Origin: Salinimicrobium sp. TH3
GTDB lineage: Bacteria > Bacteroidota > Bacteroidia > Flavobacteriales > Flavobacteriaceae
Assembly: GCF_026676115.1 (NCBI RefSeq)
Contig: NZ_JAPONB010000014.1
Location: forward strand, 1 to 53,199
Reading direction: 5' to 3'
DNA: 53,199 bases
Positions 7,144-35,254 of this stretch are shown one piece after another. The notes under the pieces are model-generated. The model was not told where the DNA came from and did not search any database. It saw nothing but the letters and a program-made list of their open reading frames with translations. The translations under genes and the position numbers were made by a program. The stretch's first letter is position 1. Every line of letters starts with the position of its first letter.

Positions 7144-7188
7144 TATGACCGACCTCATAAAATTCGGGAATTAAATTGGGCATCTTTG
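7144..7188 (+). promoter_or_regulatory. CRP-type box plus -7 element, hemerythrin operon promoter
   Basis: A near-palindrome TATGAC-CGAC-CTCATA (7144-7159) is followed after exactly 21 nt by CATCTTTG (7181-7188), one base off TAnnTTTG. If the first base of the -7 element is -12, the box centres at -41.5. The spacing equals that at the promoters of tauE, the doxX/dsrE operon, the cstB-like gene and rrf2. This is the weakest match of the five boxes. Confidence 0.5.
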
Positions 7189-7206
7189 TCCTATTAGCCG
7201 TATTTT

Positions 7207-7368
7207 ATGGAAGAAAAGGATCAAATTAAATCTACCAAAGCTGCTTCCGAAGTAAAAGAACCAGTGAAGCTTTGCAATATTTGTGGCGAGCTAAGGAATA
7301 AACCACTGGGAAAGAAGAAGCCGGGACGAAAAAAGAGTAATGGAAAAGAAGAAACCGATAAAACGTAA
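7207..7368 (+). CDS. Small basic CxxC protein (53 aa)
   Basis: An ATG 18 nt after the predicted -7 element opens a 53-codon frame whose last 29 nt overlap the start of the hemerythrin gene at 7340, which suggests translational coupling. The product has a Lys/Glu-rich N-terminus, a CNIC motif (Cys23, Cys26) and a very basic C-terminal half (KPLGKKKPGRKK). The single CxxC could bind zinc as a dimer or be redox active, and the basic tail could bind nucleic acid. I do not recognise the family. Support is position, spacing and overlap, not homology. Confidence 0.55.
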   Translation: MEEKDQIKSTKAASEVKEPVKLCNICGELRNKPLGKKKPGRKKSNGKEETDKT

Positions 7369-7819
7369 TGAAGCCCTAAAGCCTTTAAGTCGTGAACATC
7401 ATCACGGCCTGTTGTTGTGCTGGAAAATAAGACAGGGAATAAAGATGCAGGTTGAGCCCGAGCGTATTAAAAGCTATACTGACTGGTTCAAAAGCAAGTA
7501 CCTCTATCCCCATTTTGAGGCCGAAGAAAAATTTGTCTTTCCTGTTTTAGGAGATGAAAATCCATTTGTAAAAAAAGCTCTTGCCGAACACCGGAGGCTC
7601 AGGAGACTATTCAACCAACAGTCGGAAATTTTTAAGGCTTTGAGTCTTATAGAGGAAGAGCTCGAAAAGCATATAAGATTTGAGGAACGTATTGTGTTCA
7701 ACGAGGTGCAACAGGCGGCTACTCCCGGACAGTTTGAAGAGATCCAGAAGAAACATCATGCCATTGCTTTCTCAGATGACATTTGGGAAGATAAGTTTTG
7801 GATTATAAAAGGGAAATAA
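7340..7819 (+). CDS. Hemerythrin-like (HHE) protein
   Basis: This 159-residue four-helix protein has all expected non-heme diiron ligands: His20 (SREHHHG), His58 and Glu62 (HFEAEEKFVFP), His84 (EHRRL) and His111 with Glu115 (HIRFEERIVF). HHE proteins bind O2 or NO or deliver iron, and are often under NO- or redox-responsive regulators. It overlaps the preceding small CxxC gene and is 10 bp from a paralogous gene, so the three are probably one transcript. A CRP-type box lies upstream of the operon. No SD sequence is evident, as usual in this phylum. Confidence 0.88.
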   Translation: MEKKKPIKRNEALKPLSREHHHGLLLCWKIRQGIKMQVEPERIKSYTDWFKSKYLYPHFEAEEKFVFPVLGDENPFVKKALAEHRRLRRLFNQQSEIFKALSLIEEELEKHIRFEERIVFNEVQQAATPGQFEEIQKKHHAIAFSDDIWEDKFWIIKGK

Positions 7820-7829
7820 AAACAGGAGC

Positions 7830-8282
7830 ATGACAACAACATCTTTAGTATTAGAGCCCTTGTCCCTTGAACACCGGCAGGCGCTTCAGCTTTGTGATAA
7901 TATAAGAAAAGGTCTCCAAAATAATATAGAAAAAGAAAGAATAAGGAACTATACTAACTGGTTTAAGAATAACTATTTAGATCCTCATTTTCAGCTGGAA
8001 GAGCAGTATATATTTCCACTTTTGGGAAACAATGTTAGGGTCAAAAGAGCATTGGCAAATCACAGGCGAATTAATAAACTACTTAGCTGCGACTGCGACA
8101 ATGAAAAGGTCCTAAACTTGCTTGAAGAAGAACTGGGCACGTATATAAGGTTCGAAGAGCGCGTACTTTATAAAGAGCTAGCGAAAAGTGTAACCCCGGA
8201 AGATCTTATCATGATCCAAAAAAATCATGAAAAAATAAGTTTTAACCAGAAAGACTGGAACGATAAATTCTGGACCTCATAA
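7830..8282 (+). CDS. Hemerythrin-like paralogue with one altered iron ligand
   Basis: This 150-residue tandem paralogue of the preceding gene keeps His15, His53, Glu57, His78 and Glu109 at the aligned ligand positions. The fourth-helix histidine is replaced by Tyr105 (YIRFEERVLY against HIRFEERIVF). The WF/W-rich segments (TNWFKNNYLDPHF and a C-terminal DKFW) match the paralogue. Tyr could still bind Fe(III), so this may be a different diiron or mononuclear site rather than an inactive copy. A CDCD motif (Cys87, Cys89) is unique to this copy. Confidence 0.85.
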   Translation: MTTTSLVLEPLSLEHRQALQLCDNIRKGLQNNIEKERIRNYTNWFKNNYLDPHFQLEEQYIFPLLGNNVRVKRALANHRRINKLLSCDCDNEKVLNLLEEELGTYIRFEERVLYKELAKSVTPEDLIMIQKNHEKISFNQKDWNDKFWTS

Positions 8283-8309
8283 GTCTAAATTTTATTGTGT
8301 ACTTAATTG

Positions 8310-8654
8310 TTATCGTAAAAGCCTGCGGGTAATAAAGTTGTTTTTTTGGAAATAGCTGCTGTGAGCTGCGCCAAGGTTTAATACTGTGGTGTAGAAACCT
8401 CCCAGAATAAATAAAACGTGGTAAGCAGTGGCCGAATAAAACGAAGCCAGCAGGTATACCAATACTGCCGTTAGAAGAATGGTGCAGAAGAAGGAAATCC
8501 ATGCATCATGATCCAGCTTCAACATCTTAAACATTAAACGAAGCAGCGGATTCTTCTCTTCATAAGAAACAACCGGTCCATTTGATGAAATGTAAGACAC
8601 TAAAAATTTGGAAGCAATAATTTCAAAAGCAACCAGGGCTAATAACAGATCCAT
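8310..8654 (-). CDS. Small membrane protein of unknown function
   Basis: The 114-residue product starts at ATG with a hydrophobic helix (about 3-22), then a polar loop (NGPVVSYEEKNPLLRLMFK), then two long hydrophobic helices (about 52-95) and a basic C-terminus (ITRRLLR). The three-helix pattern fits an inner-membrane protein with a cytoplasmic tail. It is convergent with the hemerythrin genes and 27 bp from them. I recognise no family. Confidence 0.65.
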   Translation of the reverse strand: MDLLLALVAFEIIASKFLVSYISSNGPVVSYEEKNPLLRLMFKMLKLDHDAWISFFCTILLTAVLVYLLASFYSATAYHVLFILGGFYTTVLNLGAAHSSYFQKNNFITRRLLR

Positions 8655-8878
8655 ATGGTATAAGTAGGTGAAACTGAACGAGCTAAATTAAAATAAAAAT
8701 TTTATCCTGCAAGTTTAATTGTGGTTAATTTTGCTGTTCAGCTATAAAAATGGTCTTTCATCGATCAAAGAATAATGAGAATTAATCTTTGTATGGAAAA
8801 TTCTCATAAGGTAGTGCCCGTGAATTTTGAAAAAGCTGATTTATAGGCCTATTTTTACAGGAAGAATACCTACAAAAA

Positions 8879-9529
8879 TTGAAGAAGCCGTTAAAGATAA
8901 GGTCTTATTCTCCCAAAGAGGAACTCCTGAATGTAATTACTCATGGAGCAGGCCTGGTTCTAAGTGTACTGGGACTCTTTTTTTTAATCTTTAAGGCCCT
9001 TGAATTTGATAGCAGGAGGTTACTGCTCAGTTTTCTCATTTTTGGCAGCTCTCTTATATTATTGTATCTGGCTTCCACCCTTTACCACAGCACAAAAGAC
9101 AAAAGAAAAAGGTTTAATTTCAAGGTTTTTGATCACATTGCCATTTTTGTGCTTATCGCCGGCACCTATACGCCATTCGCACTTGTGACACTGCATGGCC
9201 GCACAGGATGGATCATTCTTGGAGTAGTGTGGGGCATTGCCCTCTTTGGAACTATCCTGAAGCTTTTCTTTACCGGAAGGTTCAAAATCCTCTCAACACT
9301 GCTCTACGTAGGAATGGGCTGGGTCATTATTTTTGCTATAAAACCTTTAATGGAAAATCTCTCTTCCCAGGGGCTGCTATGGCTTTTAGGTGGCGGGCTG
9401 GCCTATACCATAGGTGCAATCCTCTATAGCATAAGCAGAATAAACTATAACCATGCGATCTTCCATTTCTTTGTATTGCTGGGAAGTTACTGCCATTATA
9501 TGGCAATTTACAATCACGTGAGTCCTTAA
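8879..9529 (+). CDS. Hemolysin III / TrhA family membrane protein
   Basis: The 216-residue protein probably uses a TTG start. It has seven hydrophobic helices and the PAQR/hemolysin III signature: ELLNVITHGAG near the N-terminus, a S-T-L-Y-H-S motif, DHIAIFVLIAGTYTPF, and a C-terminal H-x3-H (NHAIFHFFVLLGSYCHY). The conserved Ser, Asp and three His form the zinc site of the superfamily. Bacterial members have been linked to membrane energetics and fluidity; toxin activity is not implied. It stands alone, 76 bp before a DUF202 gene that may be co-transcribed. Confidence 0.9.
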   Translation: MKKPLKIRSYSPKEELLNVITHGAGLVLSVLGLFFLIFKALEFDSRRLLLSFLIFGSSLILLYLASTLYHSTKDKRKRFNFKVFDHIAIFVLIAGTYTPFALVTLHGRTGWIILGVVWGIALFGTILKLFFTGRFKILSTLLYVGMGWVIIFAIKPLMENLSSQGLLWLLGGGLAYTIGAILYSISRINYNHAIFHFFVLLGSYCHYMAIYNHVSP

Positions 9530-9605
9530 CGATAATCCGCTTTTTTAATTATCTCACTTAAATCTCTACCTTTATTCATAGAAATTATAAAGGCCTGGAA
9601 ATAAA

Positions 9606-9893: not shown

Positions 9894-10020
9894 CTAAATA
9901 TTAATGGGTGAAAGGTGCAGCCCGGTTGGGTGTAGAATTGCAAAATTAAGCACGAAACCTGCATTCTTGAATAGATGATCCTAAATCCCCAAGGAGGGGA
10001 AAGTTATCAGAAAATAAACT

Positions 10021-10752: not shown

Positions 10753-10808
10753 TTTTCAGGTCTAAGATTCTACAAGTATAATTGTTTTGCTTCAGCCAAA
10801 CACATACT

Positions 10809-13307: not shown

Positions 13308-13742
13308 TTAGATCTTTAAAAAAGTATCTCCCGAAACAAGTCCGCTGGTGAGATCTCTAAGGCTGGTATTTTCTACAATTTCCTTTAGTCCATTTCTTAC
13401 TGGTTTAAAACGGGAGTGAAAAGGGCAGGGATGGTTTTCGGAACAATCGTGAAGTCCAAGGCTGCAACGGGTATAAACCTTATCTCCGTCTATAGCGAGA
13501 ACAATTTCTGAAATCTTGATTTTGGTCGCCATATCCTGCTTTACTTCGAAGCCGCCGTGAGCACCTTTGGTAGAAACAATAATGCCGCTTCGGCTTAACT
13601 TTTGAAGGGTTTTGGCAGTAAAGGCTTCTGGAGAATCTATTTCCCGCGCAATATCTTTAAGGCTGGCTCTTCTGCCTCTTTCAGATTCTGAAGCGATAAA
13701 AATAGCTGCCCTAATTGCATATTCACAGGCTTTTGAAAACAT
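13308..13742 (-). CDS. Rrf2-family transcriptional regulator with three conserved Cys
   Basis: The ATG at 13742 gives 144 residues beginning [13 protein letters not shown], the standard Rrf2 opening. The predicted transcription start (about 13762) lies downstream of the alternative ATG at 13781, which supports this choice. The winged helix (about 1-65) has [20 protein letters not shown]. Cys93, Cys100 and Cys106 lie in the region that binds [2Fe-2S] or [4Fe-4S] in IscR and NsrR. It heads the nadA-nadB operon. Fe-S, NO or O2 sensing is inferred from the family and the cysteines. Confidence 0.9.
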
Positions 13743-13766: not shown

Positions 13767-13811
13767 CAAAATTAGGGACATGAATGTCTTTATTTTATGA
13801 CCTGTGTCAGG
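13767..13811 (-). promoter_or_regulatory. Box plus -7 element, promoter of rrf2-nadA-nadB
   Basis: Read on the minus strand, CCTGAC-ACAG-GTCATA (13811-13796) is followed after exactly 21 nt by TAATTTTG (13774-13767), a perfect TAnnTTTG. The core TGAC-N4-GTCA is a perfect inverted repeat centred 29.5 nt from the -7 element, as at four other promoters in the window. It could be bound by a Crp/Fnr protein or by the Rrf2 protein itself. Confidence 0.55.
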
Positions 13812-16151: not shown

Positions 16152-17459
16152 TCACTGCTGGTGAGAGCCTACTTCTTCTTTAGGTACACCGGTTTCATAA
16201 GGGTTTGTTGGATCATTGCTCCATTCAAACCAGCCACCATCATATACAGAAACATTTGGCCAACCCAGGAGCCAGGCGTTGAACCAGGCTTCACTGCCAC
16301 GCCATCCTGTTCCGCAGTAAAATGCCAGGTGCTTATCGGGCGTGATACCGTTCTGCTTCCAGTTCTCTATGATCTCATGAAATTCCCTGGTGGTATGGTC
16401 TACATTCCGGTAGTTTTCCATGTGATAGGCGTCACTCCCACAGTCGGCGAAAATAGCTCCGGGAATACGACCTTTTGCTTCGATATAATTATAACCGCTC
16501 ACTTCTCCAATATATTCGGGGTAACTGCGTACACAAACCAGGTCGGCATCACCGGCAGCGATCATCTCTTTTGCCTCGGGCACATCTACAGCCAACTCCG
16601 GGTGGGCTGGGATTTTTGCACCAAAATCCTGAACAGGTTGTTTCGGTACATCGTCTGTACTTACCTCAAATCCTGCATCTTCCCAGGACTGGAACCCGCC
16701 GTTGAGTACCCTCACATCCTTGACCCCGGCGTACATCATGATAAAGGCGTTTCTAATGGCTCCAATGTCGCCGGCAGCACTTCCCGGGAATTCATCATCA
16801 TTATCTGGGAACATAAATTTCCCATAAAGAACAACGGTTGTATCGGCGGTGATCCCGTGCTCTTCCAGTGCTTTCTTTAGTTCTTCGGGACTACGGCGGT
16901 TCCAGGTTTCCGGAGATTCAAGGGCATTAGTGTCCATGTCAATTGCTCCTGGAATGTGTCCGCTTAAGTAAGCGTCTCTGTTGCGGTAGTGCGAGTGCAC
17001 CACAACATATTTATCATTATCATATTCTGCCGGATTCTTTCCAGAGATCAGGTCCTTTACCCACTGTGCAGACACCAGCTGTCGGTATTTTGGTAGATAA
17101 CTCATTGGCAAAGTTTCATCTATAGCCCACTCGTCTAAAAAGAAGTTGTAAACTGCTATTTTAGAGTACTCTGCTTTTTCAAAACTTTCGGCAACTTTTA
17201 TAGCCTCTTCGCGAGTGTATCCGTAAATGATGATCTCTTCGGAAGGATCAATTTCCTTGTGCCTCACTATCTCGATCCAATCCATATAGCCGGCCCATTT
17301 TGCCGGAAGGGATTTTGCACCCTTAATATGTCCTCCCCGATGCTCATCGCGAAGTTTCCAGCCGTTGTAAGCATCTACAGGACGCACATCAATGATACGT
17401 GCTCCTTTTTTTTGTCTTTCTATAAGTTCCTGAGTGGTTACTTCCCTGAATTTTGTCAT
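16152..17459 (-). CDS. Three-domain rhodanese sulfurtransferase, only the third domain with active Cys
   Basis: The 435-residue protein has three rhodanese modules at about 1-118, 128-266 and 290-425. Module 1 reads EIIIYGYTREEA and module 2 VVLYGKFMFPDN at the active loop, so neither has a catalytic Cys. Module 3 has AFYCGTGWRGSEAW with Cys382 and a six-residue CGTGWR loop typical of thiosulfate or 3-mercaptopyruvate sulfurtransferases. Two-domain enzymes with an inactive N-terminal domain are the norm; three domains is an extended form. No signal peptide is seen, so it should be cytoplasmic. It probably transfers sulfane sulfur to cyanide or thiols. Confidence 0.9.
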   Translation of the reverse strand: MTKFREVTTQELIERQKKGARIIDVRPVDAYNGWKLRDEHRGGHIKGAKSLPAKWAGYMDWIEIVRHKEIDPSEEIIIYGYTREEAIKVAESFEKAEYSKIAVYNFFLDEWAIDETLPMSYLPKYRQLVSAQWVKDLISGKNPAEYDNDKYVVVHSHYRNRDAYLSGHIPGAIDMDTNALESPETWNRRSPEELKKALEEHGITADTTVVLYGKFMFPDNDDEFPGSAAGDIGAIRNAFIMMYAGVKDVRVLNGGFQSWEDAGFEVSTDDVPKQPVQDFGAKIPAHPELAVDVPEAKEMIAAGDADLVCVRSYPEYIGEVSGYNYIEAKGRIPGAIFADCGSDAYHMENYRNVDHTTREFHEIIENWKQNGITPDKHLAFYCGTGWRGSEAWFNAWLLGWPNVSVYDGGWFEWSNDPTNPYETGVPKEEVGSHQQ

Positions 17460-20322: not shown

Positions 20323-20404
20323 CTACCTCAAACCTGATCTAAATCATATTTAAGCTGCGGGAGGTTCTTCATCTTTGAGGTTTTGCCTTTAAAAACCTTT
20401 ATAT

Positions 20405-22204
20405 ATGACATATGATCTATCCCCACACCGGTTTCACATCCCGGTAATGGGAATTGCCTTCACAATAGACACGCCAATTAAAGTTGCTTCCTACGGGATC
20501 ACTTCGGCATTGTCTATTATTGAAGACAATCTCATTGAAATGATGAGGAAGCATTACTACCAGGAAAATGAGGAAACTTACGTTCCTATTGAAAAACACG
20601 AGGAAAATTATCGCGTGCGACGCATTACAGACTATCTTAATTTGGTGAACCGGAATGTGCAGACCAGGTTTGATAAGCTCAAAGAGTCGGCTTTTGAAAA
20701 AGGGTCGGAGATCGTGAAGTACTTCGAGATGCTGCCCGAGGAGAGCGGACTCAAAGAAAAATATCATCAATTCCAGCAGGCTCACGGAGAGGCTAAGGCA
20801 GAGCTGGAAACTTTTCTTCGGAAGCATATTCGTCCCGGTGCAATTGAAGTGAACATCATGACCAAGGTCGATAAGAACAACAAAGATAAAACAGGGGAAA
20901 TCCTTGCAGATGGATCTGATGCTCTGGGAGCTTTGAAAGCTTTTGCTGAAAGTAATCTTGAAAATTCTGCTGTGATATTTTCTGCGGGAATGAATCCCAG
21001 GTTATTTAACTACCTGGAAAATTTCAGAGCATTTGATGCTTTGGCCTGGGGAGTTTTTAAGAAGAAAGTGATCATCAAAGTTAGCGACTATCGTTCTGCA
21101 TTGATACAGGGGAAATACCTGGCTAAAAAAGGTATTTGGGTGAGTGAATTCAGAATTGAGTCCGGATTGAACTGCGGCGGACATGCCTTTGCCACTCAGG
21201 GTTATTTACTTGGACCAATCCTGGCAGAGTTCAGAAATAAAAAAGATGAGTTAAGAAAAGAGCTGTTCAGCCTTTACAATCCTGCTATAATAGCCAAAGG
21301 AGAAAATGGTTTTGAAGAGCCACATCCCGTGAATATTACGGTACAGGGTGGAATTGGGACTGCGGCAGAGCAAAACCTGCTTTATGGATATTATAATGTT
21401 GACGGCGCCGGTTGGGGAACTCCTTTCCTGCTTTGCCCCGAAGCTACAACTGTAGACGTGAATACTCTTGAGTTGCTCGCAAAAAGTAAAGAGAACGATG
21501 TGGTACTGAGCAAAGCTTCGCCGCTGGGGGTGAGATTCAACTATCTTAAAGGAACCACCGCCGATAAGGAGAGACAGCAAAGAATTGACAAAGGAAAACC
21601 GGGAAGTCCCTGTACCGAAAAATACCTTGTCTCCAATACCGAGTTTACTAAAGAACCTATTTGTACTGCTTCAAGAAAATATCAAAAATTAAAACTGGAG
21701 CAACTTGAAAATGCAGGACTACCGGAAAATGAATATCAACTGCAGGTAGATGACCTGCTAAGCAAGGAGTGTTTGTGCATTGGGTTAAGTAACTCCGCCG
21801 GCCTAAATTACAAGGTGCCTATTGTGGAAAAACTCGATGCGGTGACCATCTGCCCCGGGCCAAATATTGTAAACTTCAATAAGGTAGCCAGTTTGCAGGA
21901 AATGACAGATCATATTTATGGGCGAAAGGAATTCTCCCAAAATGAGGATCGTCCACATATGTTCATCAAGGAACTACAGCTTTATGTAGATTATCTTAAG
22001 GAGGAGGTGCGCAATACATTTAATCCCGGCCCCAGGGATATAAAAGCCTGGACTGGATTCTGCAATAATCTTCTGGAAGGAGTTGCACATTACAGGGATT
22101 TACTGGAAAGGGAGCTTATAAAGAAGAAAGATGCTTTTGAACAAGGCCTGTACAAAATGGAACAGGCGGTACTGGAAATAAGGACCGGGCTAAGTAATAA
22201 CTAA
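20405..22204 (+). CDS. Large conserved-looking cytoplasmic protein of unknown function with Cys motifs
   Basis: The 599-residue protein has no signal peptide or membrane helix. The N-terminal segment HIPVMGIAFTIDTPIKVASY, and later VQGGIGTAAEQNLLYGYYNV and GAGWGTPFLLCPEATTV, resemble strand-loop elements of FMN-binding TIM barrels such as nitronate monooxygenase, but I cannot confirm this. Cysteines occur in LNCGGHAF, GSPC, PICTASRKY, KECLCIGLSN and TICPGPN. The spacing would allow a metal or Fe-S site. Charged helices lie at about 90-145 and at the C-terminus. It stands alone before a strong terminator. Possible roles are a flavin or Fe-S oxidoreductase or a novel enzyme. Confidence 0.8.
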   Translation: MTYDLSPHRFHIPVMGIAFTIDTPIKVASYGITSALSIIEDNLIEMMRKHYYQENEETYVPIEKHEENYRVRRITDYLNLVNRNVQTRFDKLKESAFEKGSEIVKYFEMLPEESGLKEKYHQFQQAHGEAKAELETFLRKHIRPGAIEVNIMTKVDKNNKDKTGEILADGSDALGALKAFAESNLENSAVIFSAGMNPRLFNYLENFRAFDALAWGVFKKKVIIKVSDYRSALIQGKYLAKKGIWVSEFRIESGLNCGGHAFATQGYLLGPILAEFRNKKDELRKELFSLYNPAIIAKGENGFEEPHPVNITVQGGIGTAAEQNLLYGYYNVDGAGWGTPFLLCPEATTVDVNTLELLAKSKENDVVLSKASPLGVRFNYLKGTTADKERQQRIDKGKPGSPCTEKYLVSNTEFTKEPICTASRKYQKLKLEQLENAGLPENEYQLQVDDLLSKECLCIGLSNSAGLNYKVPIVEKLDAVTICPGPNIVNFNKVASLQEMTDHIYGRKEFSQNEDRPHMFIKELQLYVDYLKEEVRNTFNPGPRDIKAWTGFCNNLLEGVAHYRDLLERELIKKKDAFEQGLYKMEQAVLEIRTGLSNN

Positions 22205-23318: not shown

Positions 23319-23954
23319 ATGCTTGAAAAAGAACTCAGAGATGCCTATCATTTTATATTTGAAGAAGAATTACTGGTAGAAATTACAAAGTTTGGAACTT
23401 TAAGAGAAGTAAAGGCGGGGGAAACCATCATCGATATTGGAGATTATGTAAAAAGCATGCCCTTGCTATTGGAAGGAGCAATTAAGATCCTGCGGGAAGA
23501 CAAGGACGGGGATGAATTACTGCTGTACTTCCTGGAACGTGGTGATACCTGTGCCATGACACTTGCCTGTTGCCTGGGTCACACAAAAAGTGAGATAAGG
23601 GCAGTTGCAGAAAAGGATACACACCTGGTAATGATCCCTATTGACAAAATGGAGGAGTGGACTTCCAGGTTCAAAAGCTGGAGGAACTTTGTCTTTGAAA
23701 GTTATCACTCCAGGCTTACCGAGATGCTTGATACTATTGACACTATCGCATTTTTAAATATGGATGAGCGCCTTATGAGGTACCTGCAGGATAAGGCCAA
23801 GATCAACAAAAATGAACAAATACAGGTAACTCACCAGGAGATCGCTTACGACCTTCATACCTCCCGTGTAGTGGTTTCGCGACTCCTAAAAAAGCTCGAG
23901 ATAGAGGGTAAAATTGGGTTGCAGCGTAATAGCATCATGGTGCATGATCTTTAG
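23319..23954 (+). CDS. Crp/Fnr-family transcriptional regulator
   Basis: The 211-residue protein has a cyclic-nucleotide-binding fold (about 10-125) without the cAMP-binding RxS signature, a dimerisation helix (about 115-150) and a winged helix. In the recognition helix, RVVVSRLLKKLE (183-194) aligns with RETVGRILKMLE of E. coli CRP: the two DNA-reading arginines are kept (Arg183, Arg188) and CRP Glu181 is Val184. Cys78, Cys84 and Cys85 (DTCAMTLACC) may form a redox or persulfide switch. A CRP-type box begins 2 bp after its stop codon, ahead of tauE. Regulation of the sulfur genes in this window is inferred. Confidence 0.92.
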   Translation: MLEKELRDAYHFIFEEELLVEITKFGTLREVKAGETIIDIGDYVKSMPLLLEGAIKILREDKDGDELLLYFLERGDTCAMTLACCLGHTKSEIRAVAEKDTHLVMIPIDKMEEWTSRFKSWRNFVFESYHSRLTEMLDTIDTIAFLNMDERLMRYLQDKAKINKNEQIQVTHQEIAYDLHTSRVVVSRLLKKLEIEGKIGLQRNSIMVHDL

Positions 23955-23956
23955 TA

Positions 23957-24001
23957 TGTGATCTTTGTTACAAAGCCTGCAGCTTTAAAAAAGTACTTTT
24001 G
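23957..24001 (+). promoter_or_regulatory. CRP-type box plus -7 element, tauE promoter
   Basis: TGTGAT-CTTT-GTTACA (23957-23972) is followed after exactly 21 nt by TACTTTTG (23994-24001), a perfect TAnnTTTG. No TTG -33 element is present; the box occupies that place. With the first T at -12 the box centres at -41.5, class II geometry. The predicted leader is about 13 nt. Confidence 0.7.
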
Positions 24002-24018: not shown

Positions 24019-24816
24019 ATGGAGATAACACAAATTCTTGGTTACCTGGGAGCTTTACTTATTGGAGTAGTCCTGGGACTCATAGGCGGTGGAGGTTCTA
24101 TTTTAACCGTACCTGTACTTGTATACCTCCTCTCCGTTAATCCCGTGACCGCAACAGCCTATTCTCTTTTCGTAGTAGGAACTACTTCTCTTTTTGGCTC
24201 AATTAAAAACTTTCAGAAAAAACGGGTGGACATACGTACCGCCATTGTTTTTTCCATTCCGGCTTTTATAGCAGTTTATCTTACCAGGAAATTCCTTGTA
24301 CCGGCGATCCCGGAGACTATTTTTACTATTGCCGATTTCACTGTTACCAAAAACATTGGGATCATGTTGTTTTTTGCCTTTATCATGATACTGGCTTCGG
24401 TATCCATGATCATGGAACCTTCAGAAAAGGACGCTAAGCCACGAAAGGTGAGGTTCAATTATTTACTCATAACATTAGAAGGTGCTATAGTAGGAGTTCT
24501 AACAGGAATAGTGGGGGCCGGTGGAGGATTCCTTATCATTCCAGCGCTGGTGCTTATGGCAAAATTACCAATGAAACGAGCCGTAGCGACCTCTCTCGTG
24601 ATCATAGCTGTAAAATCTCTTATAGGTTTTATTGGAGACGTGCAGAATCTTGAAATTGATTGGGTTTTCCTTCTTATCTTCACAACAATGTCGGTAGTCG
24701 GTATCTTCGTAGGGATATGGCTTAATCGTTTTATTGATGGAAAGAAGCTTAAGAAAAGTTTTGGCTGGTTTGTACTGTTGATGGGGCTGTACATTTTTTG
24801 GAAAGAGATCTTTTGA
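24019..24816 (+). CDS. TauE/SafE-family anion exporter
   Basis: The 265-residue membrane protein has about eight helices in two homologous halves, each with the family motif: GVVLGLIGGGGSILTVPVLV in the first and GVLTGIVGAGGGFLIIPALV in the second. The charged loop at about 135-150 (SEKDAKPRKVR) separates the halves. Members export sulfite, sulfoacetate or related C2/sulfur anions. It directly follows the Crp/Fnr gene and its box and precedes cydAB by 194 bp. Export of sulfite formed by persulfide dioxygenase is a reasonable inference. Confidence 0.93.
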   Translation: MEITQILGYLGALLIGVVLGLIGGGGSILTVPVLVYLLSVNPVTATAYSLFVVGTTSLFGSIKNFQKKRVDIRTAIVFSIPAFIAVYLTRKFLVPAIPETIFTIADFTVTKNIGIMLFFAFIMILASVSMIMEPSEKDAKPRKVRFNYLLITLEGAIVGVLTGIVGAGGGFLIIPALVLMAKLPMKRAVATSLVIIAVKSLIGFIGDVQNLEIDWVFLLIFTTMSVVGIFVGIWLNRFIDGKKLKKSFGWFVLLMGLYIFWKEIF

Positions 24817-25010: not shown

Positions 25011-26312
25011 ATGGAAAATCTTGAATTTGCAAGACTGCAAATGGCCTTTACCCTGGGATTCCATATCATCTTTGCATGTATAGGAATGGTCATGCCTTTT
25101 TTTATGGTCGTGTCCCACAAGAAATGGTTAAACACCCGTAACCCTCTATACCTGGAACTTACAAAGGCCTGGCAGAAAGGAGTGGCTATATTTTTTGTAA
25201 CAGGAGCAGTCTCTGGTACTGCTCTCTCTTTTGAATTAGGAATGCTGTGGCCGGAATTTATGAAACATGCCGGACCTATTATTGGAATGCCTTTTTCTCT
25301 CGAAGGTGCTGCATTTTTTGTAGAAGCTATAGCCCTGGGCTTTTACCTGTATGGTTGGAACAAGTTACCCGAAAGATTTCACTGGTTCACCGGGATCATC
25401 ATTGGAATATCGGGAGTTGCCTCGGGTATATTAGTAGTTTCGGCAAACGGGTGGATGAATGCTCCCACAGGTTTTGATTTTATAGACGGGCAATTTACAA
25501 ATATTGACCCTGTACAGGCATTTCTAAATCCCGCCTGGTTTACACAGGCTCTTCACATGACAATAGCGGCCTTTGTAGCCACAAGTTTTGCTGTGGCAGG
25601 AGTTCATGCTTTCCAGGTGTACAGGAACAAAAGACCCGAGCTCCATAAGAAGGCTTTTAAAATAGCCATTATTTTTGGTGCAGTTGCGGCCTTTCTTCAA
25701 CCTCTAAGCGGGGATCTTTCTGCTAAAGATATAGCTAAGCGACAACCTGTAAAGCTTGCTGCTATGGAAGCACATTATGAAACCGGTAGGAATGTGCCAC
25801 TTTACATAGGAGGAATTGTAAATGAAGAACAGCAAACAGTTTCCCACAAGATCGAAATCCCCGGAGCTCTTTCCTTTCTTGCATTTGGAGACTTTGATGC
25901 CGAAGTGAAGGGGCTGCGGGATTTTCCCGAAGATGAACATCCTCCTGTAGCTATTGTACATTATGCTTTCCAGATCATGGTAGGAATTGGGACTTTATTG
26001 ATGCTTGCGGGAATTCTCTATTTTATTAGTTTAAAGTACAAATCCCTTTTTAACAGGAAATGGTACTGGTTGATCTTTGTAGTGCTTGCACCTCTTGGGT
26101 TTATTGCTGTGGAAGCTGGCTGGGTAGTAACCGAAGTTGGTCGGCAGCCGTGGATCATCTACGGGTTTATGAAAACCAGTGAAGCGGTAACACCTATGCC
26201 GGGAATGGAATTTAGCTTTTATATGTATGTAGTGGTTTATCTGGTGCTTGCCCTTACAGTAACCTGGTTAATGCGCAGACAGATCAAAGTTCTTAATAAC
26301 ACAAAAGAATAG
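25011..26312 (+). CDS. cydA: Cytochrome bd ubiquinol/menaquinol oxidase subunit I
   Basis: The 433-residue subunit holds hemes b558, b595 and d. Likely heme ligands are His18 (LGFHIIF), His182 (ALHMT) and Met323 (QIMVGIG), with Glu98 and Glu105 in the proton/heme d region. The quinol loop retains Lys248 and Glu253 (KLAAMEAHYET), and the GRQPW motif is present. It is the short Q-loop form lacking the E. coli insertion. It has about nine membrane helices. bd oxidases resist sulfide and NO, which fits the sulfur neighbourhood. The start is an ATG 2 bp before cydB's partner spacing; cydB begins 2 bp after the stop. Confidence 0.96.
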   Translation: MENLEFARLQMAFTLGFHIIFACIGMVMPFFMVVSHKKWLNTRNPLYLELTKAWQKGVAIFFVTGAVSGTALSFELGMLWPEFMKHAGPIIGMPFSLEGAAFFVEAIALGFYLYGWNKLPERFHWFTGIIIGISGVASGILVVSANGWMNAPTGFDFIDGQFTNIDPVQAFLNPAWFTQALHMTIAAFVATSFAVAGVHAFQVYRNKRPELHKKAFKIAIIFGAVAAFLQPLSGDLSAKDIAKRQPVKLAAMEAHYETGRNVPLYIGGIVNEEQQTVSHKIEIPGALSFLAFGDFDAEVKGLRDFPEDEHPPVAIVHYAFQIMVGIGTLLMLAGILYFISLKYKSLFNRKWYWLIFVVLAPLGFIAVEAGWVVTEVGRQPWIIYGFMKTSEAVTPMPGMEFSFYMYVVVYLVLALTVTWLMRRQIKVLNNTKE

Positions 26313-26314
26313 TT

Positions 26315-27355
26315 ATGCTGTACATCGTGCTCTTTTTTCTTTTGTTTTCCCTGCTCCTTTATGTTCTATTGGGAGGGGCAGATTTTGGAGCGGGAATAGT
26401 AGAATTGTTCTCCTCCAAAAAGAGTAAAAGAATTACCCGTGATACCGTATATCGCGTCATGGGACCGGTTTGGGAAGCCAATCATATTTGGCTTATCATT
26501 TTGATTGTTATAATGTGGATAGCTTTCCCCAGTTATTTTAATGTGATAATGATCTATTTGCATGTACCGTTCGTTCTGGTATTACTGGGAATTACTATGA
26601 GAGGAGTTGCCTTTATTTTTCGCCATTATGATGCCATTGTAGATAAATCCCAGTTCTTCTACAACTGGATGTTTCGCATTTCCAGTCTTGTTACTCCGGT
26701 TTTTCTGGGGATGTCTTTTGGATCTCTGGTGGGCGGAAGGATAATACTTGCTCAAGATTTTTCAGGTTACTCTTTTCCTGAACTTTTTATCTGGCCCTGG
26801 TTCAACCTCTTTTCTTTTTTAGTGGGTTTATTCTATGCTGCACTTTGTGCCTTTCTTGCTTCTACTTTACTCATTGGAGAAACAAAGGGGGAAGTACGTA
26901 GAATGTTCAGCCGTAAGTCTGCCATTTTTACCACAGTACTGGTGCTACTGGGATTCATACTAATTCTTTACGGTTATATATCTGAAGTTAAATTCATAAA
27001 GGATTTTATCAATAACCCGGTATCTATTGGAGCAGTTATTCTTTCAGGAATTCTTTTGTTCCCTTTATGGAGAGCAATAAAAAAGCAGAACCGGGTGGCC
27101 AGCAGGTACCTGGCAGGGCTACAAGTAGTGCTTGTGCTGTTTGCGGCTCTTTATGCTCACTTTCCATACATTATTATTACCACAGGGAAGGAACTTAGCA
27201 TTCTGGAAGGGCTGCCTCCTCATTCGGTCATCCAAAACCTGGCGATCATGCTGCTTATAGGAGGTGCAATCATATTACCGGGACTTTTCCATCTAATGAA
27301 ATCCTTCGGAATGATCAAGATCCTGGAAACCGGAAAGGAAGAAATGGGGCATTAG
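26315..27355 (+). CDS. cydB: Cytochrome bd oxidase subunit II
   Basis: The 346-residue membrane subunit begins 2 bp after cydA. It has eight to nine hydrophobic helices. CydB features include the N-terminal GGADFGAGIVELF, a VWEANHIWLIILIVIMWIAF segment, and GMSFGSLVGGRI. It has no cofactor itself but stabilises the oxidase and contributes to proton and oxygen paths. No cydX-like small reading frame was seen after it, and no cydCD assembly genes are in the window. Confidence 0.96.
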   Translation: MLYIVLFFLLFSLLLYVLLGGADFGAGIVELFSSKKSKRITRDTVYRVMGPVWEANHIWLIILIVIMWIAFPSYFNVIMIYLHVPFVLVLLGITMRGVAFIFRHYDAIVDKSQFFYNWMFRISSLVTPVFLGMSFGSLVGGRIILAQDFSGYSFPELFIWPWFNLFSFLVGLFYAALCAFLASTLLIGETKGEVRRMFSRKSAIFTTVLVLLGFILILYGYISEVKFIKDFINNPVSIGAVILSGILLFPLWRAIKKQNRVASRYLAGLQVVLVLFAALYAHFPYIIITTGKELSILEGLPPHSVIQNLAIMLLIGGAIILPGLFHLMKSFGMIKILETGKEEMGH

Positions 27356-30239: not shown

Positions 30240-32303
30240 TTAATTTCCTGCCTGTCCTAAAAAGGCAGGATCTACCTTGTCCAGGTTCTCTTTATACCTA
30301 ATTTTTCCCTCGTCCAGAAATTCAACGAATTCCTGTACGTCAAGATCATATGCTCTTGGAGGAGAGAGTAACTCCTCATTGTCTCCCACCAGCGTGTAGT
30401 ATGGCTGAGCATTTGCATTAAGCTTCTGGATCATGAAATCCATGTTTTGTTTACCAATGGTCTTTTTTACTTTATTATCGTAAACAGAAGTGTACCATTC
30501 TTCCCGGGGGAGTTCTGTTTTTTCATCCACATACATGGCGACCACAATGTAGTCTTCTTTTAACCTTTTCAAAACTGCAGGATCACTCCATACAGCGGCT
30601 TCCATTTCCCGACAATTCACACAGCCGTGGCCCGTGAAGTCTATAAATATGGGTTTATTTTGCTTTTTTGAGCAGGCAAGCGCTTGCTCGTAATCAAAGT
30701 ATCCTTTGATGCCATGCGGAAGCTCGAGGAAATCATCGTATTTCGGCTTTTCACATTCGGCGGTAAGCGCTTCCTGTTCTGAAGATACTGGGGTCTCCAG
30801 GAGCTGGAAATCATGAGTACTCATTGGCGGCAGGTAACCTGCGAGTGCTTTTAAAGGTGCACCAAAGAGGCCGGGGATAAGATAAACCACAAAACTAAAG
30901 ACCAGGATTGCGCTGAGCAATCGTGAAATAGAAGTGCTTTCAGATTTCTGTTCATGTGGAAAAATGATCTTTCCTAAAAGGTAAAATCCGAGCAGAGCGA
31001 AAATTACGATCCACAGGGCCAGATAAATTTCCCGGTCAAGAAGATTCCAGTGATAAACCTGGTCTACCATACTCAGGAATTTAAGTGCGAGCGCAAGTTC
31101 CAAAAACCCAAGAACAACCTTTACCGTATTAAGCCAGCCACCGCTTTTAGGCAGGGAACTTAGCCATCCCGGGAAGATCGCAAAAAGCGTGAATGGAATT
31201 GCAAAGGCAGTAGAAAAGCCTAACATTCCTATTAAGGGTTTAATTGCCTGCCCGCTGGCGGCTTCCAGTAAAATAGTTCCTGCGATAGGACCTGTACAGC
31301 TAAAGCCAACAAGGACAAGGGTAAAAGCCATAAAAAATATCCCGGCTAAACCGCCTTTGTTTGCCTGGTTGTCAATATTATTGACCAGTTTATTTGGCAG
31401 TCTTATTTCAAACAATCCAAAGAAAGAGAGAGCGAATAATACAAAAATTGCGAAGAACAAAAGATTGGGAAGCCAGTGTGTGCTTAGAAAATTGGCAAAA
31501 CCAGCTCCAAATATTAAAGCGAAGACCGTTCCTACAAGGGTATATATAGCTATGATAGAAACACCATAGATAATCGCATTCAATATTCCCCTTGAGCGGC
31601 TACCGCTGGATTTTGTAAAGAATGTAACGGTCATGGGGATCATTGGAAAAACACAGGGAGTAAGCAGGGCTGCCAGTCCTGCTCCAAACGAGATGAGGAA
31701 GAAGGCCATCAATCCCATCCATCCTTTTTCTTCTTCCACAGGCTGGAAGGTGTTGGTAAACGGCTCCAATTCTTTAAGAGGGGGTTGACCTGAAGAGTTA
31801 GAAGGGTTTGCGGCATTTGCTACTGCACCCGCTTTTTCTCCCGAAAGGTCGATGGAAAATTCAGATTCATAGGGAATACATTGCCCGGTCACATCGGAAC
31901 AGATCTGGTAGGTTACACTTCCCGAGATCACCGGTTTTTCATCAATAAGTTTGATCTTATGTTTAAAAACCGCCTTTTCGGTAAAATAAGTGACATCCCC
32001 TTCCCAAATTTCTTCATATTTTTCCTTGGGATCTACCGGTAAGATCTCCCCCAAAAGTTCAAATTTTCCGGAAGGATCAAAACTGAATTCTGTAAGCATT
32101 GGCCCCAGGTCGGGATCAAAATCACTGGAATACATGTACCAGTCTTGAGGTATATCGGCAGTAAATGTGAGGGTAACCTCATCTCCCGGTGCAGCATCAT
32201 TATTATCGGCCTTAACCTGCCATTCTGGTGCTTCCTGCACCTGTGCTACATGAGGAAGAAATGAGAATAAAGCCAGCAGGAGGCTAAAAAATTTTGTTTT
32301 CAT
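30240..32303 (-). CDS. dsbD: Thiol:disulfide interchange protein DsbD
   Basis: The 687-residue three-module protein carries electrons from cytoplasmic thioredoxin to the periplasm. A signal peptide (about 1-22) precedes an N-terminal DsbD-alpha domain with Cys135 and Cys142. The central DsbD-beta region has eight helices with Cys217 (LTPCVFPM) and Cys336 (GFSCTGP). The C-terminal thioredoxin-like gamma domain has CVNC (561-564). It should feed the periplasmic TlpA- and DsrE-type proteins encoded just upstream. A terminator hairpin at 32327 suggests separate transcription from tlpA. Confidence 0.95.
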   Translation of the reverse strand: MKTKFFSLLLALFSFLPHVAQVQEAPEWQVKADNNDAAPGDEVTLTFTADIPQDWYMYSSDFDPDLGPMLTEFSFDPSGKFELLGEILPVDPKEKYEEIWEGDVTYFTEKAVFKHKIKLIDEKPVISGSVTYQICSDVTGQCIPYESEFSIDLSGEKAGAVANAANPSNSSGQPPLKELEPFTNTFQPVEEEKGWMGLMAFFLISFGAGLAALLTPCVFPMIPMTVTFFTKSSGSRSRGILNAIIYGVSIIAIYTLVGTVFALIFGAGFANFLSTHWLPNLLFFAIFVLFALSFFGLFEIRLPNKLVNNIDNQANKGGLAGIFFMAFTLVLVGFSCTGPIAGTILLEAASGQAIKPLIGMLGFSTAFAIPFTLFAIFPGWLSSLPKSGGWLNTVKVVLGFLELALALKFLSMVDQVYHWNLLDREIYLALWIVIFALLGFYLLGKIIFPHEQKSESTSISRLLSAILVFSFVVYLIPGLFGAPLKALAGYLPPMSTHDFQLLETPVSSEQEALTAECEKPKYDDFLELPHGIKGYFDYEQALACSKKQNKPIFIDFTGHGCVNCREMEAAVWSDPAVLKRLKEDYIVVAMYVDEKTELPREEWYTSVYDNKVKKTIGKQNMDFMIQKLNANAQPYYTLVGDNEELLSPPRAYDLDVQEFVEFLDEGKIRYKENLDKVDPAFLGQAGN

Positions 32304-32326
32304 GAATTCTTTTTGATTAAAGGAAA

Positions 32327-32347: not shown

Positions 32348-32353
32348 GTTTCT

Positions 32354-32947: not shown

Positions 32948-32970
32948 GAGAAAATCGTTTTTTGTTGATG

Positions 32971-33390
32971 TTATAGTTCAATACTTAAATAGCCCTTCTT
33001 TTGTAATTCGAAGTTGTATAGAATGCCGTTTTCCACCACCTTTAAACTCTGGTGCAGTTTTTCGCGATCTACTCCAAACTTCTTTAGGGAAAAACCACAT
33101 GCATTTATGGTGACATTTGCCTGCCCGGCCTGCGAGATGAAATCCTTCATCATTTCTTCATTGGTGAGGTTTTGAACAGCCTTACCACAAACTACTACCT
33201 GGAAATCACCAAATTGATGTCCATCTTGTTTAGCCAGCTCCTGTGCCGCCAGCAGAATAGGCTTTAACTGGGGTACTTTTCTGGTAAGAACTACATAATT
33301 CGTTTTTTCTGAAGGCTGTGTCTGCGCCTGAGTACTAACTGTAAATAATGCGAACATGATTAGTATGCTGCTATAAAAAATCTTTTTCAT
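32971..33390 (-). CDS. Exported DsrE-family sulfur-relay-like protein
   Basis: The 139-residue protein has a signal peptide (about 1-22, ending TQA-QT). The mature domain matches the DsrE/DsrF/TusCD fold, with strand-loop VVVCGKAV (Cys68) and the conserved active-site region INACGFSLKKFG (Cys98). Cytoplasmic DsrE proteins carry persulfide sulfur; an exported one would act in the periplasm. Its start overlaps doxX by 20 nt, and a TlpA thioredoxin follows. The set looks like a periplasmic sulfane-sulfur handling unit. Confidence 0.85.
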   Translation of the reverse strand: MKKIFYSSILIMFALFTVSTQAQTQPSEKTNYVVLTRKVPQLKPILLAAQELAKQDGHQFGDFQVVVCGKAVQNLTNEEMMKDFISQAGQANVTINACGFSLKKFGVDREKLHQSLKVVENGILYNFELQKKGYLSIEL

Positions 33391-33793
33391 GAGTTGTTTT
33401 TTGAGGTTTATCGAAATCGTTTAATATGAAGAAAACAAGCCCGCCCATAATGGCGATGTTTTTAAATAAAGGGCCCAGGGTTGTGATCTGTCCTACTTGA
33501 ATTGTTAGAGTTATTGGAATAAGAACGGCAAGTAAAATTGCTGCTGCCCATCGGGTCCTAAACCCTATTAACAAACTTATTCCGGCCAGGAGCATAACAA
33601 TTCCTGAGGCAATCACCATTACCCGGGGTTCTCCAAAAAAATAAGCTATACCCTTAAAACTGGCCTGGTCTATTCGTTGCAGCGTTTTTTCCAACTTAAG
33701 CAAATGGCTTGAACTTGCCACCAGGAATATCCCGCTTAACATCACTCGGAAAATTTGTACCGAACGACGGCTCACTAAGGTTGTAGTGGTCAT
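33371..33793 (-). CDS. DoxX-family membrane protein
   Basis: The 140-residue protein has four hydrophobic helices with the DoxX pattern: GIFLVASSSHLLKLEKT, a central LLAGISLLIGFRTRWAAAILL and a final NIAIMGGLVFFIL. DoxX was named after a thiosulfate:quinone oxidoreductase subunit of archaea and occurs widely in membrane redox modules. It overlaps dsrE by 20 nt and follows a small membrane protein by 91 bp. Quinone-linked oxidation of reduced sulfur is an inference from family and context. Confidence 0.85.
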   Translation of the reverse strand: MTTTTLVSRRSVQIFRVMLSGIFLVASSSHLLKLEKTLQRIDQASFKGIAYFFGEPRVMVIASGIVMLLAGISLLIGFRTRWAAAILLAVLIPITLTIQVGQITTLGPLFKNIAIMGGLVFFILNDFDKPQKTTHEKDFL

Positions 33794-33884
33794 TGTTATA
33801 AATAATAAAATGAATGAATAAATAATGGCTGTTATATCGGCAGGGAGCCAGATTTTTAGCCGGAATAATTTTCAGGAATTGAAA

Positions 33885-34232
33885 TTAAACCTTTGGGGGC
33901 GGATAGAATTTGTCACGGGAAATAGAAAAAATCCCCGGCGCCCGGTAACTGTGTTTTTTGAAGTTGTTGTGGGTAACGGTATTGGCCTCCTCGCCTGGCT
34001 TAAAGTCAAAAGCCACCTGGCACAGGTAGTCAAATGCAAAATGAGATTCTAAATCGGTCTGGGCAAACTCATCGGCAGAATCCTTTTCAAGTTGCTGTTT
34101 AGGACACATTTTGTTTACCAGCGTTACTTCGGAAGCACTATAAATGATCCCTAAGAATTTTGCATCTATCGACACCATCTTTCCAAGGAAAAGAAGCACG
34201 AAAAATGCCGCTATGTAGTTTTTAAAACCCAT
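33885..34232 (-). CDS. Small membrane-anchored protein of unknown function, near-leaderless
   Basis: The ATG at 34232 (115 residues) is preferred to a TTG 9 nt upstream. One N-terminal hydrophobic helix (about 4-20) is followed by a region with MCPKQQ and LDYLC-like elements (Cys at about 43 and 71) and a conserved-looking FYPPP end. The predicted transcription start, about 34234 from the -7 element at 34246-34239, would leave a 2-nt leader. It is the first gene of the doxX-dsrE-tlpA run and lies under a CRP-type box. Function unknown. Confidence 0.7.
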   Translation of the reverse strand: MGFKNYIAAFFVLLFLGKMVSIDAKFLGIIYSASEVTLVNKMCPKQQLEKDSADEFAQTDLESHFAFDYLCQVAFDFKPGEEANTVTHNNFKKHSYRAPGIFSISRDKFYPPPKV

Positions 34233-34238
34233 GAGGAG

Positions 34239-34283
34239 CAAAAGTAATAATTGACCTGAAAAATATGTGTCACATTTGTTACA
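34239..34283 (-). promoter_or_regulatory. CRP-type box plus -7 element, promoter of the doxX-dsrE-tlpA operon
   Basis: On the minus strand TGTAAC-AAAT-GTGACA (34283-34268) is followed after exactly 21 nt by TACTTTTG (34246-34239), the same -7 sequence as at tauE. The box is palindromic with one mismatch. It could also affect the divergent lipoprotein gene at 34373, from whose possible -7 element (34322-34329) it lies at about -60. Confidence 0.7.
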
Positions 34284-34372
34284 TAAGGTTCATAAGGTTT
34301 TGGGAAGAACAGGTTTTTAGGTATTTTAGTAGATTGAAAATAACCAAATAATTTAATTAATCGATCAAAATT

Positions 34373-34687
34373 ATGAAAACCAGTATTTTAAAGACTGTAA
34401 TGTTCTCTATCACCCTTTTGTTCTTTGCTTGTGGGGAAAGCACAGATGTTGTGGAATCCGGAACTTATCAAGGAACTATTAAGGAAGTAGAGCCATCTAA
34501 GACCGAGATCTATGTAGAGACAGATGATGATCAAATCCTTGAGCTCTATTTCTCAGACAATACGGAACTTACCCGGGATGGAAGTACAGTAGAGTTCTCA
34601 ACTTTGGAGGAAGGAATGAGAGTTGAAGTTGATGTAGAAAAAGAAGGTAAAAGACTTAATCCGCTTGCTGTGCGGGTTCTAGAATAA
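34373..34687 (+). CDS. Small OB-fold-like lipoprotein
   Basis: The 104-residue precursor has a lipobox LLFFAC (Cys20). The mature domain is all-beta with GTYQGTIKEVEPSKTEIYVE and alternating charged residues, similar to DUF5666-type domains. It ends 2 bp before the DUF2231 gene, so the two form an operon. It is divergent from the box-controlled small membrane protein gene. Function unknown. Confidence 0.75.
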   Translation: MKTSILKTVMFSITLLFFACGESTDVVESGTYQGTIKEVEPSKTEIYVETDDDQILELYFSDNTELTRDGSTVEFSTLEEGMRVEVDVEKEGKRLNPLAVRVLE

Positions 34688-34689
34688 AT

Positions 34690-35178
34690 ATGGAAGAAAT
34701 ACCAGATTTTTGGCGGACAGAGGTTTTTCACCCTCTGTCTGTTCATTTTCCCATCGCCCTGCTGGTGGTGGCTTTTCTATTTAAAGTTGTTGCTCTAAAA
34801 TACTCCCGGGAGGTTTGGGAGCGGGGAGGAACAGTATTACTTATTGCCGGAGTTGTGACGGTCTGGATCGCTATTTTTACCGGAAATCTGGCCGATGGTG
34901 TGGTTTCCAGGAAGATCTGCGACCCCACCGTATTAAAAGACCACGAGAATCTTGCCTGGACTACGGCCTGGCTTTTTTCTGCAGGACTGGGGGTTGACCT
35001 TTTAAGGCAACTAAAATATCCCATTTTTAGAAACCTGCTCTTTAGATTGCTTATGATCCTGTTGCTGGCTATTGGCACGGGCACCCTGGCTTATACCGGC
35101 CATCTCGGCGCCACTCTGGTTTATCAACAGGCTGCAGGAGTTTATACGCCTTCGGGAAACTGTGCCGAATTCGAGTAG
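34690..35178 (+). CDS. DUF2231 membrane protein
   Basis: The 162-residue protein has four hydrophobic helices. It shows the DUF2231 signature HPLSVHFPIALLVVAF at the N-terminus, a conserved His in the loop (LKDHENLAW) and GHLGATLVYQQAAGVY at the C-terminus. Conserved His residues could bind heme or metal; the family has no assigned role. It lies 2 bp after a lipoprotein gene and just upstream of the cstB-like operon. Confidence 0.88.
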   Translation: MEEIPDFWRTEVFHPLSVHFPIALLVVAFLFKVVALKYSREVWERGGTVLLIAGVVTVWIAIFTGNLADGVVSRKICDPTVLKDHENLAWTTAWLFSAGLGVDLLRQLKYPIFRNLLFRLLMILLLAIGTGTLAYTGHLGATLVYQQAAGVYTPSGNCAEFE

Positions 35179-35209
35179 TAAATCATTAAAGCTGAATGCC
35201 TAAACTCTC

Positions 35210-35254
35210 TGTAACCCGTGTTACTTACTAGCCTGCCTAAAAAAGCTATTTTTG
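35210..35254 (+). promoter_or_regulatory. CRP-type box plus -7 element, promoter of the cstB-like operon
   Basis: TGTAAC-CCGT-GTTACT (35210-35225) contains a perfect GTAAC-N4-GTTAC inverted repeat. Exactly 21 nt later comes TATTTTTG (35247-35254), a perfect TAnnTTTG. The spacer shares the words AGCCTGC and TAAAAAAG with that of the tauE promoter. The predicted leader is about 50 nt. Confidence 0.75.

Follow-up and report, generated by a model that had tools for sequence, protein, structure and literature searches.

In the 53,199-nucleotide (nt) stretch of Salinimicrobium sp. TH3 DNA analysed here (contig NZ_JAPONB010000014.1; hereafter the window), five promoters carry a palindromic box of the Crp/Fnr type ahead of a Bacteroidota −7 element, and these five sites form two classes. 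The class A sites, TGTNAC-N4-GTNACA, lie at 23957, 34268 and 35210 upstream of tauE, the orf33885-doxX-dsrE-tlpA operon and a cstB-like gene, and the class B sites, TATGA-N6-TCATA, lie at 7144 and 13796 upstream of the hemerythrins and of rrf2-nadA-nadB. We consider it quite probable, judging from sequence comparison, that the three class A sites are bound by the Crp/Fnr-family protein encoded at 23319–23954 and that it activates sulfur handling in a class II-like manner. Support for the existence of a class A regulator is good, its identity with this gene product is likely, and the signal to which it responds is put forward as a proposal.

Read directly, the boxes are TATGACCGACCTCATA at 7144 (plus strand), CCTGACACAGGTCATA at 13811–13796 (minus), TGTGATCTTTGTTACA at 23957 (plus), TGTAACAAATGTGACA at 34283–34268 (minus) and TGTAACCCGTGTTACT at 35210 (plus), and the −7 elements, in the same promoter order, are CATCTTTG, TAATTTTG, TACTTTTG, TACTTTTG and TATTTTTG (Table 1). 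The positions of the boxes and the gap of exactly 21 nt to the −7 element, both reported in the initial annotation, hold at all five promoters; the consensus it gave, TRTNAC-N4-GTNAYA, is found without mismatch in one of the five. At class II CRP-dependent promoters of Escherichia coli, CRP is centred at −41.5. A start-site map of Flavobacterium psychrophilum (PMC9723704) places the TAnnTTTG element at −12 to −5, and with start positions borrowed from that species a 16-nt box lying 21 nt ahead of TAnnTTTG would span −49 to −34, with its centre likewise at −41.5. The predicted leaders measure 13 nt for tauE, 50 nt for the cstB-like gene, 2 nt for orf33885, 20 nt for rrf2 and, at the hemerythrin promoter, 14 nt to a small open reading frame (ORF) ahead of the hemerythrins. 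The listed start of orf33885 (34241) falls within the −7 element, the likely ATG being at 34232, and the listed start of the rrf2 ORF (13781) is upstream of its −7 element.

Table 1. Promoter elements and genes of the two site classes in the window.
Position	Strand	Feature	Basis
7144..7159	+	Hemerythrin promoter, class B box	Read directly
7178..7191	+	GGGC-N6-GTCC inverted repeat covering the −7 element (7181-7188); possible operator of the Rrf2 family	Comparison of loci
13308..13742	-	Rrf2-family regulator, start MFSK at 13742	Pfam; NCBIfam rrf2_super above cut-off
13776..13789	-	AGAC-N6-GTCC inverted repeat immediately ahead of the −7 element (13767-13774); possible Rrf2 operator for autoregulation	
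13796..13811	-	Class B-type box ahead of rrf2-nadA-nadB	Read directly
20333..20377	+	Probable sixth class B site, CCTGATCTAAATCATA-N21-CATCTTTG	Upstream of 599-amino-acid ORF 20405-22204; 3 mismatches
23319..23954	+	Crp/Fnr-family regulator, 211 amino acids, proposed class A activator	Pfam cNMP_binding, HTH_Crp_2, Crp; C78, C84, C85; helix SRVVVSR
23957..23972	+	Class A box of tauE	Read directly; same position in orthologous loci
23994..24001	+	−7 element TACTTTTG of tauE, 21 nt past box	Read directly
24019..24816	+	tauE, sulfite exporter TauE/SafE family	Pfam PF01925
32354..34241	-	orf33885 (no Pfam family), DoxX, DsrE-like, AhpC/TSA-thioredoxin (TlpA-like)	Pfam
34239..34246	-	−7 element TACTTTTG of orf33885 operon, 21 nt past box	Read directly
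34268..34283	-	Class A box of orf33885-doxX-dsrE-tlpA operon	Read directly
35210..35225	+	Class A box of cstB-like gene	Read directly
35247..35254	+	−7 element TATTTTTG of cstB-like gene, 21 nt past box	Read directly
35309..36646	+	Metallo-beta-lactamase domain and two rhodanese stretches	Pfam

Could such a pattern arise by chance in AT-rich intergenic DNA? Taken by itself, the loose box TRTNAC-N4-GTNAYA shows no enrichment in the own genome (16 places against 24 for the reversed control), and the class B pattern is weak in the window alone (4 matches against a mean of 1.0, with 2 of 100 shuffles reaching 4). The loose box behaves differently once the gap and TAnnTTTG are required as well. With up to three mismatches the window yields 5 matches against 0.45 expected, a number that none of 100 shuffles reached, and the own genome 25 + 19 against 16 + 15 in the control. 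The sole match of the own genome without mismatch and two of its four matches with one mismatch are the three class A sites of the window, the other two being C21:156528 and C14:369932. Some of the matches are probably chance occurrences, namely the one at 31980 of the window, inside a dsbD-like ORF, and those at C18:236491, a place at the 3′ end of an ORF resembling a protease, and at C14:417209, which has no clear target. In a set of 60 genomes scanned against reversed-pattern controls, class A sites with at most one mismatch number 213 against 20 and TATGA-N6-TCATA sites 247 against 15.

The gap itself is constrained. When it was left free between 8 and 38 nt in the 60 genomes, class A gave 74 matches against 12 for the reversed pattern, 56 of them at gap 21, 8 at gap 20 and 2 at gap 22; this listing takes the shortest match per place, and one place in G026 counted at gap 11 also has gap 21. 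Class B under the same conditions gave 82 matches against 18, with 41 at gap 21, 8 at gap 22 and 2 at gap 20. Around the regulator, in 80 named regulator-centred loci, class A boxes paired with an exact TAnnTTTG number 101 at gap 21 and 17 at the remaining gaps between 0 and 60 combined, where no single gap has more than two, and the reversed sequence has none at gap 21; the species in both the 60-genome and the 80-locus sets are related, and these counts do not represent independent events. Some of the window sites have counterparts in other genomes: the cstB-like site recurs in four genomes (G003, G005, G007, G009), and the context of orf33885 is the same in two (G003, G007). The reversed-pattern, shuffle and free-gap controls rule out chance for class A and, when the 60 genomes are taken together, for class B, and we attach practically no weight to it. 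The earlier claim of CRP-type boxes placed a constant 21 nt from a Bacteroidota −7 element and centred at about −41.5 is supported; the arrangement is well in excess of chance and is conserved between genera.

The common spacing, the similar palindrome and the redox-flavoured target genes may suggest that a single regulator acts at all five promoters and that the weak boxes are strong ones of reduced affinity. This appears very improbable, as the two consensuses are distinct and each is enriched in its own right in the 60-genome scans, class B sites are found in genomes that lack the class A regulator (five in G001 and one each in G033, G041, G043, G044, G054 and G057), and the downstream genes differ between the classes. 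The separate enrichment of class B together with the different downstream genes led us to reject a single regulon. The initial annotation, which had allowed for a second class, was right in placing sulfur genes behind the three strong boxes, but the hemerythrin and rrf2 boxes belong to that second class, and a coherent sulfur/redox set across all five did not emerge. The observation holds and reaches further than was claimed; two regulons with a common geometry replace the single one. The occurrence of two box types at one distance suggests that the spacing is set by the polymerase, whichever regulator is bound. Both activators probably meet RNA polymerase alike, and the common spacing need not imply one regulator for all five promoters.

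The gene at 23319–23954, on which the initial annotation was silent, as it was on the sixth site and on the inverted repeats found at both class B promoters, ends with a stop codon 2 nt ahead of the tauE box. Its product scores above the Pfam cut-offs for cNMP_binding (46 bits), HTH_Crp_2 (35.8) and Crp (22.9), which places it in the Crp/Fnr superfamily, and its AlphaFold model has the Crp fold with a mean predicted local distance difference test (pLDDT) score of 87.4, the top structure matches being Crp/NtcA. The closest named relative of the protein, at 99% identity, is that of Salinimicrobium sediminilitoris. A box with at most one core mismatch is present within 500 nt downstream of the regulator gene in 65 of the 80 loci; in 55 of them it is joined at gap 21 by an exact TAnnTTTG, and in 7 more by a near −7 element; among random windows of the same loci, 2.85% contain a box with the 21-nt gap. 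A homologue of the regulator was found in 48 of the 60 genomes, and class A sites are present in 46 of these 48 against 1 of the 12 genomes without it; with four weak homologues (G020, G039, G042, G056) counted as absent, the figures become 42/44 and 5/16 (p = 8e-7).

The pairing of regulator and box can also be followed through natural variation in the recognition helix, SRVV[VI]SR in all 30 orthologues of alignment A1. Position 181 of the family has been linked to a base of the box (Rodionov 2005, PMC1274295). We counted regulators identical over their last 150 residues once, took the first box of each regulator, and included helices matching a set expression. Of 121 regulators with V in the helix, 83 have an adjacent box with an exact core, which is A/A in 71 and G/G in none; among the 17 with E, a small set, six have a box (G/G in three, A/G in two, A/A in one), and the association of helix residue with box base is significant by half-site (Fisher 3e-7). 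This variation agrees with the position 181 rule and supports the assignment of the box to the regulator. The own genome encodes ten cNMP-domain proteins, and class A boxes might be bound mainly by another of them. One paralogue of 35% identity (C11:270468-271034 in G000; L054, L362) has E in its helix and is directly followed by GGTGACTAAAGTCACT-N21-TAGTTTTG and a gene for a YgaP-like membrane protein, and the four genomes with weak homologues do contain sites. The box of this paralogue, however, is of the GTGAC/GTCAC type in keeping with its E helix and not of the TGTAAC type, and in most loci it is a V-type regulator that adjoins the V-type box. We regard binding by such another protein as improbable.

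The recognisable targets of class A are mostly sulfur proteins. In the window, the layout of the 35309–36646 product is presumably that of a CstB-like persulfide dioxygenase/sulfurtransferase; the DsrE-like protein falls just below its Pfam cut-off (22.4 against 22.7 bits), and orf33885 matched no Pfam family. Elsewhere in the own genome, class A sites precede two rhodaneses, an OsmC gene, an outer membrane efflux gene (OEP) and, after the paralogue, the YgaP-like protein; a DUF302 protein just upstream has its own site with three mismatches. Among the 112 class A sites of the 80 loci (at most one core mismatch), 45 precede tauE, 20 cstB-like genes, 5 homologues of orf33885, 3 cydA, 2 TlpA-like genes and 2 no ORF, and the other 35 include YgaP-like, SulP, rhodanese, DUF302 and cytochrome genes and a Pyr_redox_2 protein that we read as a sulfide:quinone oxidoreductase. 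Two near-perfect class A boxes lie 911 nt apart in the own genome (C14:369961 and 370872; L010, L011), one before a SoxA/TsdA-type cytochrome, with an imperfect −7 element TAGGTTTA at gap 21, and the other before an Asp/Glu racemase-like ORF. The window also contains cydAB (cytochrome bd; 25011–27355) after tauE and, at 16152–17459 on the minus strand, a gene for a 435-amino-acid protein with three rhodanese stretches; the pattern scan found no class A site at gap 21 before cydA or near the rhodanese gene.

In the mechanism that we propose, a dimer of the 23319–23954 protein would bind TGTAAC-N4-GTTACA-like palindromes at −41.5 and contact RNA polymerase at the fixed distance of 21 nt from TAnnTTTG, giving activation as by CRP at class II promoters. 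The targets, which include TauE, the CstB-like dioxygenase/rhodanese, DsrE, DoxX and thioredoxin-like proteins, would handle sulfide, persulfide and sulfite. Three cysteines are conserved in alignment A1 (C78 in 30 of 30 sequences, C84 in 28 and C85 in 27), and the Cx5CC motif is present in all 80 loci, which were selected with patterns including C78. By comparison with CRP, these residues may lie in the nucleotide-pocket segment, at the edge of the cNMP-like pocket, and they are likely candidates for a persulfide/polysulfide sensor; persulfide or polysulfide may switch their thiols and turn the protein into an activator of reactive-sulfur detoxification. C78–C85 is the stretch of lowest confidence in the model (residues 81–90 average a pLDDT of 65), so that its modelled geometry is tentative. 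It is quite possible, if not the reading we favour, that the class A regulator is real and senses something other than reactive sulfur, such as oxygen, NO (nitric oxide), haem, a nucleotide or a metal, or that it acts as a repressor. HcpR of B. thetaiotaomicron binds haem, according to PMC13370916, and cytochrome bd after tauE, the three class A sites before cydA homologues, the OEP efflux target and the low model confidence at C78–C85 are compatible with another signal. The predominance of sulfur proteins among the recognisable targets and the conservation of the thiols nevertheless speak for reactive sulfur, and a rigid gap with the box at −41.5 would fit contact with the polymerase better than blocking.

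Several points weigh against the assignment of the class A sites to this regulator and to sulfur. We infer both binding and activation at the window promoters, with a start position taken from F. psychrophilum. In fifteen of the 80 loci the regulator gene is followed by no box, the four genomes with weak homologues alone still carry class A sites, and the genomes without a regulator are mostly small, which partly confounds the co-occurrence. The search patterns that yielded the 80 loci took in C78 and a portion of the helix, and the conservation there is in part selected; the loci are centred on the regulator, which biases their target list towards tauE. The cysteine-poor relatives L077 and L080 retain C78 and have SG in place of C84-C85. 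Beyond the family the spacing is less strict: in a set of 15 loci (L299–L313), an exact TAnnTTTG stands at gap 21 in 2 and at gap 22 in 2, and several have the box directly after the regulator but no exact TAnnTTTG. In five loci of family f37 (L306, L307, L309, L310, L312), the regulator is directly followed by a perfect palindrome, which reads TGTAACTAATGTTACA in four of them, and no exact TAnnTTTG was found 15–26 nt from it.

Among the known systems, class II CRP promoters share with the class A promoters the Crp-fold activator, the palindrome centred at −41.5 and the fixed distance to a promoter element, but here the promoter element is the Bacteroidota −7, the box is TGTAAC-N4-GTTACA instead of TGTGA-N6-TCACA, and there is no E181. 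CRP itself was rejected at 63.4 bits against an NCBIfam cut-off of 266, with V at position 181 and A predominating at the discriminating base. NtcA, the cyanobacterial nitrogen regulator with the motif GTAN8TAC, is the second-nearest solved relative by sequence and has the same type of palindrome and R-V in its helix (STRVTVTR); the relationship is on a scale of 27 bits, the targets of sulfur and not nitrogen metabolism and the cysteines set our protein apart, and NtcA was likewise rejected (47.5 bits against 244.95 in NCBIfam). According to PMC1274295, HcpR2 of Bacteroides is a Crp/Fnr-family protein with the motif GTAACnnnnGTTAC, in which E181 is replaced by P and which controls hcp. The class A sites match this motif, but our protein has V where HcpR2 has P, and hcp (PF03063) is present in 2 of the 60 genomes and absent from the own genome, against 48 of 60 for the regulator homologue, which excludes HcpR2. 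FNR was excluded by the lack of an N-terminal cysteine cluster for [4Fe-4S], the first cysteine of the 23319–23954 protein being C78. The sulfide/persulfide repressors CstR (CsoR type), SqrR and BigR (ArsR type) control genes for persulfide dioxygenase, rhodanese and TauE by thiol sensing, as is proposed here; they differ in having other folds and repressor logic, in contrast to the Crp/Fnr activator that we propose.

The class B promoters look like a separate low-oxygen/NO-type regulon. We propose that their sites are served by a different Crp/Fnr regulator of low-oxygen or nitrosative genes, with the same geometry as class A and with an Rrf2-type operator overlaid. In the genus, the box occurs at gap 21 in all 10 rrf2 loci, which comprise all genus matches of at least 71% identity, and in all 7 hemerythrin loci, for which, from seven matches of at least 69%, L152 was left out and L165 (47%) added; the hemerythrin orthologue L152 has no class B box in the 260 nt shown. 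The rrf2 loci examined outside the genus lack the box; L130, L142 and L143 gave no start and do not enter this comparison. GGAC-N6-GTCC recurs with 0–2 mismatches and a constant offset in all 17 of these chosen loci, +6 past the box in rrf2 and +18, over the −7 element, in the hemerythrin loci; a fuller consensus gave 1 match in the window against 2.04 expected. It is plausible from this comparison that the inverted repeats are candidate operators of the Rrf2 protein itself.

Downstream of class B sites in the loci examined are NadA and a ScdA-type iron-sulfur repair protein, both recognised by Pfam, and hemerythrin, and HemN-like and 2-oxoacid:ferredoxin oxidoreductase (POR)-like targets were identified by eye, HemN from L264, L265 and L268. 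The 90-residue HemN-like piece had no Pfam match, and POR in the class B operon of the own genome stayed below its cut-off (26.4 against 27.4). Four paralogues (L046, L047, L048, L051) have class B sites no more than 1.5 kb away, but none of the four could be singled out as the cognate regulator. The small ORF between the class B promoter and the hemerythrins (7207–7368) encodes 53 amino acids with a CNICG motif, and similar frames are seen by eye in the genus. The 599-amino-acid ORF behind the sixth site matched no Pfam family and has homologues in L176–L178 and probably L259; in the orthologues L177 and L178 the gap is unchanged and the box matches more closely, and the near-identical L176 has the same imperfect box.

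What is known of how sulfide and persulfide handling is controlled comes mostly from CsoR-, ArsR- and sigma54-dependent regulators of other phyla, and a search of the open-licence literature found no Crp/Fnr regulator of sulfide/persulfide genes in Bacteroidota, an absence that is weak. The circuit described here looks like an undescribed one of a familiar kind. Of 247 genomes sampled across the phylum, 97 carry regulator homologues with E below 1e-30, and we tentatively suggest, as a possibility that we would not yet call probable, that these homologues represent a widespread and apparently undescribed Bacteroidota Crp/Fnr subfamily in which the nucleotide pocket has become a persulfide/polysulfide thiol switch. 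The subfamily would be the chief activator of reactive-sulfur detoxification in flavobacteria, using GTAAC-N4-GTTAC at exactly −41.5, and a lineage with the E helix would have split off with GTGAC-N4-GTCAC, giving parallel sulfur regulons that do not cross-talk. From this point of view, the natural helix-to-base variation would offer material for testing recognition, and the two unrelated box types at one distance would provide a clean rule for activator placement at promoters of the unusual Bacteroidota sigma factor. If the proposal is true, very common marine and soil bacteria use a Crp/Fnr activator to respond to sulfide and persulfide, and the signature of a box, 21 nt and TAnnTTTG would be sufficiently precise for predicting its targets in each genome.

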